In this document: positions 15,740 through 17,336 of the stretch, in pieces
Numbering within the stretch: the first letter of the stretch is position 1
Layout: the number at the start of each line of letters is the position of its first letter
Source: Candidatus Borkfalkia excrementavium
Lineage (GTDB): Bacteria; Bacillota; Clostridia; Christensenellales; Borkfalkiaceae
Assembly: GCA_019115945.1 (NCBI GenBank)
Contig: DXCO01000034.1
Span: forward strand, 1-62,781
DNA: 62,781 bases
Direction of reading: 5' to 3'
The notes under the pieces: generated by a model
Databases searched by the model: none
What the model was told of the DNA's origin: nothing
The model's input: the letters and a program-made list of their open reading frames with translations, nothing else
Translations under genes and position numbers: made by a program

Positions 15740-15776
15740 GGCAGAGAAAAAATTAAAATTTTATTTTTTCTCTGCC
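15740..15776. repeat. AT-rich inverted repeat between divergent operons
   Basis: Perfect 13-base arms (15740-15752 and 15764-15776) with an 11-base AT centre. It abuts the -35 box of the carbohydrate operon and lies 14 bases before the -35 box of the cat promoter. It could be a regulator-binding site for either side or a bidirectional terminator. Confidence 0.6.
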
Positions 15777-15789
15777 CGATCCTCTGCCG

Positions 15790-15818
15790 TTTACACCGTT
15801 CATAAAAGATGGTATAAT
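15790..15818 (+). promoter_or_regulatory. Promoter of the cat-vat operon
   Basis: TTTACA (15790-15795), 17 bases, TATAAT (15813-15818). Transcription should start near 15825, giving a leader of about 80 bases before the cat gene. Confidence 0.82.
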
Positions 15819-15848
15819 ATCCTTACCGACACGAAAGGAGGAATCGGC

Positions 15849-15878
15849 ATGAAGCGGGGACTTGTATCTGCCTTCTGA
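15849..15878 (+). CDS. Leader peptide of the cat-like gene (9 aa)
   Basis: A 9-codon ORF, MKRGLVSAF, with a strong AAAGGAGGA ribosome site 7 bases before its ATG. It ends 26 bases before the cat ATG and its last codons form the left arm of a hairpin that covers the cat ribosome site. Nine-codon leaders are typical of chloramphenicol-inducible cat genes in Gram-positive bacteria. Chloramphenicol arrest is known to favour Ala, Ser or Thr at the penultimate position of the nascent chain, and residues 7-8 are Ser-Ala. Function as an arrest peptide is inferred. Confidence 0.75.
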   Translation: MKRGLVSAF

Positions 15879-15899
15879 AAAAAATCAATTTTCAGGAGG
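15871..15899 (+). promoter_or_regulatory. Translation attenuator hairpin sequestering the cat ribosome-binding site
   Basis: CCTTCTGAAAA (15871-15881) pairs with TTTTCAGGAGG (15889-15899): 11 pairs with one G-U, 7-base loop. The right arm contains the entire GGAGG used by the cat ATG at 15905. The left arm begins in leader codon 8, so a ribosome stopped at codons 5-9 would open it. Confidence 0.8.
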
Positions 15900-15904
15900 T
15901 TCAA

Positions 15905-16540
15905 ATGCATTACGAAACAATCGACATCGAAACATGGCAAAGAGGAAAACTCTTTCGATTTTTTACCGACAGACTGCGCAACGTGATGAGCATGACTGCC
16001 GATATAGACGTTACGCCGCTCGCGGAATATATCCGTAAAAACGGGATGAAATTCTATCCCGCAATGATCTGGGCCGTATCGAAGGCGGTCAATATGCGCC
16101 CGCAATTCAGATACGGCTGGGACGAGCACGGCAACCTGATCCGTTGGGATCGCGTTTCGCCTTATTACGCGGACTTTCATAAGGAAGACGAATCGTTCGT
16201 AAAACTGGTTACCGAATATTCGGACGACGCGGCCGTATTCCATTCCCGCTTTCTTGCGGACAGAAAAAAATACGGCGATCTGCGGGGTTTTGACCTGACG
16301 GACGTTCCCCGAAACACGTTCGACGTATCCTGTCTGCCTTGGGTACGTTACAGAAGTTTTGACATACACGTATTCGACGAGGGCAAATATCTTGCGCCCG
16401 TCGTCACCTGGGGCAAATACGAAAGGTTTGGCAACAAAACCTTGTTGCCGCTCAGCATGAACATCCACCACGCTGTTGCGGACGGCTGGCATCTGTCCCG
16501 CTTTTTTGCGGACGTACAAGAGATCATTGACAATTTATAA
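15905..16540 (+). CDS. cat: Chloramphenicol O-acetyltransferase-like protein (CatA family)
   Basis: 211 residues, normal for the trimeric CatA family. The catalytic motif HHAVADGWH is at 187-196, with His188 as expected general base; the N-terminal FRFFTD...F segment and the FYPAMIWAVSKAVN helix are also family features. The enzyme acetylates chloramphenicol with acetyl-CoA; diverged members may not confer resistance, so the substrate is not proved. Its start has a strong AGGAGG site hidden in a hairpin behind a leader peptide, the arrangement of drug-inducible genes. Followed by a second leader and a Vat-like gene in the same transcript. Confidence 0.9.
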   Translation: MHYETIDIETWQRGKLFRFFTDRLRNVMSMTADIDVTPLAEYIRKNGMKFYPAMIWAVSKAVNMRPQFRYGWDEHGNLIRWDRVSPYYADFHKEDESFVKLVTEYSDDAAVFHSRFLADRKKYGDLRGFDLTDVPRNTFDVSCLPWVRYRSFDIHVFDEGKYLAPVVTWGKYERFGNKTLLPLSMNIHHAVADGWHLSRFFADVQEIIDNL

Positions 16541-16615
16541 ATTTGCAAAGGAGGAAAACGCGGTGAAACGCTGCATTGTATTTGCCGGAACAGTCTTGCT
16601 GAAATAAATTTATAA
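16535..16615 (+). promoter_or_regulatory. Possible long-range stem enclosing the second leader ORF
   Basis: TTATAAATTT (16535-16544, over the cat stop codon) is exactly complementary to AAATTTATAA (16606-16615), which ends directly against the GGAG of the Vat-like gene. All ten pairs are A-U, so the stem is weak and may be chance. Confidence 0.35.
16563..16607 (+). CDS. Second leader peptide, before the Vat-like gene (14 aa)
   Basis: A GTG-started ORF, MKRCIVFAGTVLLK, with an AAAGGAGGA ribosome site 8 bases upstream. It shares M-K-R-x-[LI]-V-x-A with the leader at 15849-15878; 17 of the first 24 bases match, and the ribosome sites match too. Ends 21 bases before the downstream start codon. 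Two related leaders in front of two unrelated drug acetyltransferases argue that they are real regulatory ORFs, not chance. Confidence 0.65.
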   Translation: MKRCIVFAGTVLLK

Positions 16616-16628
16616 GGAGATGAAAAAT

Positions 16629-17264
16629 ATGGCTGTTCCGGACAGCAAAAAAATATATCCCCGCGAAGGGGACAAAACGATCGTATATCTGAAAAACGTA
16701 ATCAAAAGCCCGAACATCGAGGCAGGAGACTTCACCTTCTATAACGATTTCATAAACGATCCGAAAGACTTTGAAAAGAACAACGTACTGTATCATTACC
16801 CCGTCAACGGCGACAAACTGAAGATCGGAAAATTTTGTTCGATCGCCTGCGGGGCAAAGTTTTTATTCAACAGCGCGAACCATACGATGCGCTCGCTTTC
16901 GACCTATCCTTTTCCCATTTTTTATGACGAGTGGGACCACGGGTTGCGGGCAGACAGGGCGTGGGACAACAAGGGAGACATCGTGATCGGCAACGACGTA
17001 TGGATCGGCTTTGAGGCAGTGATCCTTGCGGGCGTTACCGTCGGAGACGGTGCGATCGTCGGCGCGCGCGCCGTCGTCACAAAGGACGTTCCGCCCTATA
17101 CCGTTGTGGGCGGCGTTCCCGCAAAACCCATCCGCAAACGCTTTTCGGAGGAGACGATCGCCACGCTTTCAGCACTGAAATGGTGGGATCGTCCGCCCGA
17201 AGAAATCCTCAGGCGCATCCCGGGCATCCAGTCGGGAAATCTTGCGGATCTGATCGAGCGGTGA
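16629..17264 (+). CDS. vat: Vat-type streptogramin A / xenobiotic acetyltransferase
   Basis: 211 residues, left-handed beta-helix hexapeptide acyltransferase. [33 protein letters not shown], then [57 protein letters not shown] is the xenobiotic acetyltransferase pattern with the catalytic His in NSANH; the order is closest to Vat, with CatB the main alternative. It acetylates streptogramin A (or chloramphenicol) with acetyl-CoA in the cytoplasm. ATG 16629 has AAGGAG at 9 bases; the in-frame ATG at 16620 touches the ribosome site. Second gene of the cat operon, ending at a strong terminator. Confidence 0.88.
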
Positions 17265-17304: not shown

Positions 17305-17336
17305 AGGGGGTCGCCCAAACGGGCGGCCCCCTCTTT
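17305..17336 (+). terminator. Terminator of the cat-vat operon
   Basis: 12-base arms (17305-17316 and 17321-17332) with one G-U pair, 4-base loop, then CTTTTC. Confidence 0.82.

Follow-up and report, generated by a model that had tools for sequence, protein, structure and literature searches.

Organization of the cat-vat locus

The window that we analyzed, a stretch of 62,781 nucleotides that constitutes contig C28 of a 1.55-Mb genome, carries on its forward strand, from position 15790, a promoter, a short leader open reading frame (ORF), a hairpin, a CatA-type gene, a second leader ORF, a long-loop hairpin, and a Vat-type gene, in that order. The promoter-like sequence (15790 to 15818) is TTTACA-17-TATAAT with a TG-extended -10 element, a near-consensus arrangement with 11 of 12 consensus matches. 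The gene at 15905 to 16540 is predicted to encode a CatA-type chloramphenicol acetyltransferase, with a PF00302 match of 200 bits that lies over the family cut-off, a match to the CatIII structure 3cla (E = 9.5e-45), and an NCBIfam CatA score of 213.7 bits, which is under the equivalog cut-off of 270. The second gene (16629 to 17264, with a further in-frame ATG at 16620) matched the VatD structure 1khr (E = 2.6e-53) and had NCBIfam Vat NF000311 as its best match, at 245.2 bits. This score is under the cut-off of 300, so we describe the product as a putative Vat-type streptogramin A O-acetyltransferase and assign it to no named Vat. A terminator-like hairpin lies 3' of vat at 17305 to 17332. 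Between 15700 and 16700, Rfam returned three matches, all under their gathering scores and none meaningful. An inverted repeat, GGCAGAGAAAAAAT...ATTTTTTCTCTGCC, detected as a self-match on the other strand, occupies 15740 to 15776, 5' of the cat promoter.

The cat leader and hairpin

The initial annotation had proposed a translational attenuator in front of cat, built from a nine-codon leader and an 11-pair stem that holds the cat ribosome site, and had suggested folding the region as a check. A short leader ORF that has a ribosome site of its own does lie 5' of cat: MKRGLVSAF and its stop codon occupy 15849 to 15878 (ATG at 15849 to 15851, codons to 15875, TGA at 15876 to 15878), with AGGAGG starting at 15836. 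The predicted fold reproduced the proposed stem exactly, pairing 15871 to 15881 with 15889 to 15899, and added one G15870-U15900 pair, so that the hairpin spans 15870 to 15900 (5' arm, 15870 to 15881; 3' arm, 15889 to 15900). The left arm begins within leader codon 8, in the last leader codons as had been claimed, and the whole cat GGAGG (15895 to 15899) sits in the right arm with a pairing probability of about 1.0. The stability of the whole 106-nucleotide fold was ordinary (z = -1.45; 15 of 200 shuffles were as stable). A stem of at least 11 pairs against a fixed GGAGG arose in 3 of 3000 dinucleotide shuffles, and the cat stem was the longest among 100 ribosome-site-plus-ORF instances in the window, which were matched by a simple pattern that may count a single site more than once.

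We modeled a ribosome on the leader by masking 17 nucleotides from the P-site codon during folding. With the mask at codons 5 to 9, the pairing of four of the five cat GGAGG bases dropped from about 1.0 to between 0.2 and 0.4; that of the last G stayed at 0.74 to 0.78. The hairpin is thus predicted to sequester the cat ribosome site with its 5' arm within reach of a leader ribosome, and the covariation described below agrees with this prediction. Transcription attenuation at this cat was rejected, as no T-run lies 3' of the hairpin, where the terminator list has no entry. The anatomy, covariation, and codon-level conservation all fit the proposed attenuator and support a classical cat-type translational attenuator, at which a drug would stall the leader ribosome. 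The proposal was incomplete, having missed the second element, in front of vat.

The vat leader and hairpin

The second leader ORF, MKRCIVFAGTVLLK with its stop codon, lies between cat and vat at 16563 to 16607; it starts with GTG, and an AGGAGG of its own begins at 16549. The left arm within this leader is predicted to pair with the start region of vat in a long-loop hairpin (16585 to 16641), whose 5' arm (16585 to 16595) lies in leader codons 8 to 11 and whose 3' arm (16631 to 16641) is at the vat start. The loop contains the vat ribosome site, 16614 to 16619. This site was mostly unpaired in the predicted fold (0.02 to 0.5), and repression would therefore need to act via the start region. 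Masking codons 7 to 10 left the site open, with pairing of at most 0.13, and masking codon 5 or 6 gave pairing of 0.28 to 0.81, above the unmasked values. The vat leaders compared here have 9 to 15 codons and a conserved internal motif.

Conservation of the leader peptides

The cat and vat leaders have a common motif, K-x-[G/C]-[I/L]-(GNN codon)-x-[A/T], in which the GNN codon encodes V, A, D, G, or E; the hairpin begins at the last codon of this motif. We counted residues at codons 2 to 9 in distinct leader stretches (14 cat and 22 vat), which represent different sequences and not independent events. The long Oscillospiraceae-type cat leaders L048, L050, L051, L134, and L136 (Gly4 by eye) and leader L146 (Cys4 by eye) were left out. 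Lys2 occurred in 12 of 14 cat and all 22 vat leaders. Position 4 was Gly in 13 of 14 cat leaders and Cys in 22 of 22 vat leaders, and position 5 was Ile or Leu in all 14 cat leaders and Ile in 20 of 22 vat leaders, the exceptions being one Ser5 and one Met5. Codon 6 had G as its first base in all 36 leaders. Position 8 was Ala or Thr in 12 of the 14 cat leaders and 18 of the 22 vat leaders (exceptions: Pro8 in two distinct cat leaders, Met8 in three vat leaders, and Asp8 in one), and codon 9 encoded Gly in 18 of 22 vat leaders.

At codons 4 and 5 of 22 distinct leaders (13 cat and 9 vat), the mean pairwise difference was 0.49 at base 1, 0 at base 2, and 0.55 at base 3. The reading frame of the cat leaders was the best conserved of the three frames (BLOSUM mean of 1.75 versus 0.39 and -0.27). 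When vat leaders were taken alone, the conservation of frame +2 came close to that of the reading frame (3.16 versus 3.35), and constancy at the RNA level is therefore possible in these leaders. Gly at codon 9 is unfavorable for chloramphenicol stalling and speaks against the proposed mechanism, as do the leaders that lack Ala8 or Thr8. Chloramphenicol and linezolid stall ribosomes best with a penultimate Ala and less well with Ser or Thr, according to the available part of one report (PMC8987054). With codon 9 in the P site, Ala8 or Thr8 fits this rule; the second and third bases of codon 8 are part of the stem, and its Ala or Thr could thus reflect RNA pairing, which makes the fit weak support.

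Covariation of the hairpins

The cat hairpin covaries across relatives, and the vat stem does likewise. Two pairs of the cat stem (11 sequences) had changed on both sides (UA/CG and AU/GC/GU), giving 7 cells with two-sided changes compared to a shuffled mean of 2.4, a value reached in 0 of 500 shuffles. In this stem, neither the number of two-sided pairs (117 of 500 shuffles) nor that of further pair types (499 of 500) rose above the shuffled values. When we swapped arms among sequences (8 distinct arm pairs), a cat arm formed 10.62 of 12 pairs with its own partner versus 9.73 with a swapped one, and 12 of 5000 swaps were as good. For the vat stem (10 sequences), two-sided changes were matched by 6 of 500 shuffles; the cells paired (52 of 500), covariation score (81 of 500), and pair types (453 of 500) were in some cases not above shuffles. 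Arm swaps among 5 distinct vat arm pairs were as good in 196 of 5000. A wider set, 12 of the 14 distinct arm pairs after L139 and L140 with L143 were dropped for a register shifted by one base, gave 8.83 of 9 pairs for own arms versus 7.66 for swapped arms (0 of 5000). Because the 3' arm of the vat stem is itself coding sequence, protein constraint accounts for part of its constancy.

Relatives of the cat element

We applied a motif rule to the upstream stretches of cat homologues (58 distinct ones, the window's among them). It identified a leader in 16 of the 20 stretches with at least 60% identity, in 7 of 15 at 50 to 60%, and in 0 of 7 at 40 to 50%. Below 40% identity, the single match among 16 was pC194, which we rejected as a false positive: the rule fires there on an upstream TTG start whose frame runs through the ribosome site. 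The leaders recovered include MKMGLDVAF, MKIGIVSAF, MHIGLVSTF, MKRGLGVPFR, and MKRGLDAAPCKA. Longer leaders such as MKKQKSSKIGIAAASLNI were found in Gastranaerophilales records, where the motif lies farther from the start codon and its distance to the hairpin is unchanged. Four loci assigned to differently named genera (L051 to L054) have, as printed, identical 140-base stretches 5' of cat, which suggests transfer. The cat relative on a Pusillibacter plasmid had no leader by the motif rule.

A cat covariance model matched 2 of 391 class genomes, one match being a locus with the leader MKRGLDEAF in front of a 58% identical cat (L129). This model undercounts; both the cat-model and the vat-model searches were run with stricter filters, at the cost of weak matches. 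Two vat-model loci in genomes of another family (L134 and L136) have a cat homologue within about 3.1 kb, with the leader MKRGLDAAPCEA or MKRGLDNAPCEA, and the doubly leadered cat-vat pair therefore recurs. Both leader types also occurred together in G000, G201 (same genus), and G168 of the family sample and in four public contigs (L041, L044, L045, and L058). The G168 cat match (L010, G168:C4) was counted in the genome search with one in-frame TAG. The leader-controlled cat of L012 and L043 lies near another, distant cat-like gene (26% identity), which has no motif leader. Two further loci (L046 and L049) have, in place of a motif leader 5' of cat, a common other short ORF, read by eye (MNKDHALTATTLLP and MSKDYALTATTFLP), whose start is just 3' of a promoter-like TATTAT and whose stop overlaps the cat ribosome site; it may be translated without a ribosome site of its own.

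Relatives of the vat element

The same rule on 50 distinct vat upstream stretches, again including the window's, identified a leader in 21 of the 25 stretches whose identity was at least 60% and in none of the 9 at 50 to 60% or the 16 at 40 to 50%. Two of the four relatives missed at 60% or more have a leader by eye, L135 (Ser5) and L146, in which the leader MKRCIVIAGIDHLKVN is about 200 nucleotides from the vat start in class genome G390, compared to 21 nucleotides in the window. The long spacer of L146 may be an inserted element.

A vat covariance model matched 14 of 391 class genomes, the window's and 13 others from 10 other families; the model contains the first vat codons and by construction matches only before vat. 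The proteins downstream of 12 of the 13 loci (L139 was left out of the comparison) shared 62 to 71% identity with the window Vat. A K-x-C-I leader pattern that contained no vat sequence matched 6 of 291 class genomes and nothing in a reversed control. All six matches precede vat; five are also vat-model places, and the sixth is L146. Within the family, a pattern written from the known leaders gave 20 matches in 14 of 301 genomes and none in the reversed control. Thirteen of these were identified as leaders of cat or vat; five run into ORFs of 50 codons or more and were rejected as gene starts, and L081 and L087 were left out of this sorting.

Among plasmids, a nucleotide search with the two attenuators gave short, weak matches, in 2 and 3 records. 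A Staphylococcus aureus plasmid match (H59) was rejected because it has a replication gene on one side and a small hypothetical ORF on the other and does not lie at a cat gene. The plasmid-borne vat relatives of Enterococcus faecalis (vat(E)), Bacteroides fragilis, and Phocaeicola, three of 2834 matching plasmid records, had no such leader.

Proposed control of the cat-vat operon

With the leaders, predicted hairpins, conservation, covariation, and recurrence of the pair observed here, we consider it very probable that two tandem translational attenuators control the cat-vat operon via drug-stalled leader ribosomes. Without drug, ribosomes would complete each leader and the hairpin would form, hiding the cat or vat initiation region. 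A drug bound at the peptidyl transferase center, perhaps a phenicol for cat and streptogramin A or a related drug for vat, would stall the ribosome near leader codons 7 to 9; the stalled ribosome would cover the 5' arm, which starts from codon 8, and free the initiation site. The motif K-x-[G/C]-[I/L]-(V/A/D/G/E)-x-[A/T] would be the nascent-chain part of the sensor.

Any ribosome held on a leader should open its hairpin, and pairing constrains codons 8 and 9, so the leaders might instead be general sensors of slowed translation, with repressing hairpins and an irrelevant peptide sequence. We regard this as unlikely because codons 2, 4, and 5, which lie outside the stem, are conserved as residues in both the cat and the vat leaders, whose hairpins differ, and keep a fixed distance to the hairpin even when the leader N terminus is longer. 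The short ORFs and hairpins could also be constitutive regulatory RNAs or mRNA-stability elements unrelated to drugs, a reading favored by the many cat and vat homologues that lack the element. The layout that the cat element shares with the pC194 cat attenuator, and the position of both elements in front of genes whose relatives inactivate peptidyl transferase center drugs, make it highly improbable.

A variant compatible with two attenuators is that a single drug class induces both genes via one shared sensor. The common K-x-[G/C]-[I/L] motif and the common operon favor it; Gly4 in cat leaders versus Cys4 in vat leaders suggests separate tuning, although the difference may reflect ancestry, and we are inclined to doubt this variant. 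The two-attenuator explanation can also be extended. The K-x-[G/C]-[I/L] leaders could make up an undescribed arrest-peptide family that senses peptidyl transferase center drugs and controls two unrelated acetyltransferase families, with Gly or Cys at position 4 tuning the response and K-x-C-I acting as an elongation-stage streptogramin A sensor. This extension is tentative, and we lean only slightly against it.

Comparison with known attenuators

The cat element belongs to a known kind of attenuator. In pC194, cat likewise has a short leader with its own ribosome site, followed by a hairpin (GCCTCCTAAATT...AATTTAGGAGGC) containing the GGAGG of the CatA gene, and its GCCTCCTAAATT arm is close to that of the relatives described here. 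However, the pC194 stem begins after the leader stop codon, whereas that of the window begins inside leader codon 8, and the two CAT proteins are 34% identical. The initial annotation had also held that the leader peptide differs from known ones; it is indeed unlike MKKADK of pC194, the sole leader compared. The gene cat-86 is an attenuated cat of the pC194 kind.

A leader ORF likewise controls vmlR of Bacillus subtilis, a factor against streptogramin A, lincosamides, and pleuromutilins, by both transcription and translation attenuation, as described in the accessible portion of PMC9226507. That source gives a predicted three-codon ORF (MIN) with arrest at initiation, unlike the 9- to 15-codon vat leaders with their internal motif. 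Leader stalling also opens the ribosome site in ermC-type attenuators (PMC4191407 and PMC5418344, in excerpt), which have four arms, in contrast to the single stem-loops of the window.

An attenuated vat gene and a motif common to both leaders look new. The available parts of a review table name cat, cmlA, fexA, and erm among attenuated resistance genes and no vat (PMC5418344), and among the literature matches listed, with subscription papers mostly out of reach, we recognized no report of either. If our interpretation is correct, vat genes would join the attenuated resistance genes, and Clostridia would possess an arrest-peptide motif that recurs, can be tested, and has natural variants. A comparison of the leaders of the two genes could then reveal how a nascent chain reports which drug occupies the peptidyl transferase center.

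Three Oscillospiraceae-type loci (L048, L050, and L051) have longer, multi-arm regions 5' of cat, with the leaders MKIGLDAAPCKA, MKRGLDIAPCKA, and MKRGLDAAPCKA. Folding with a leader mask predicted no release of the ribosome site in L050 and L051, and in L048 the site was mostly unpaired already; these leader regions may work by alternative pairing.
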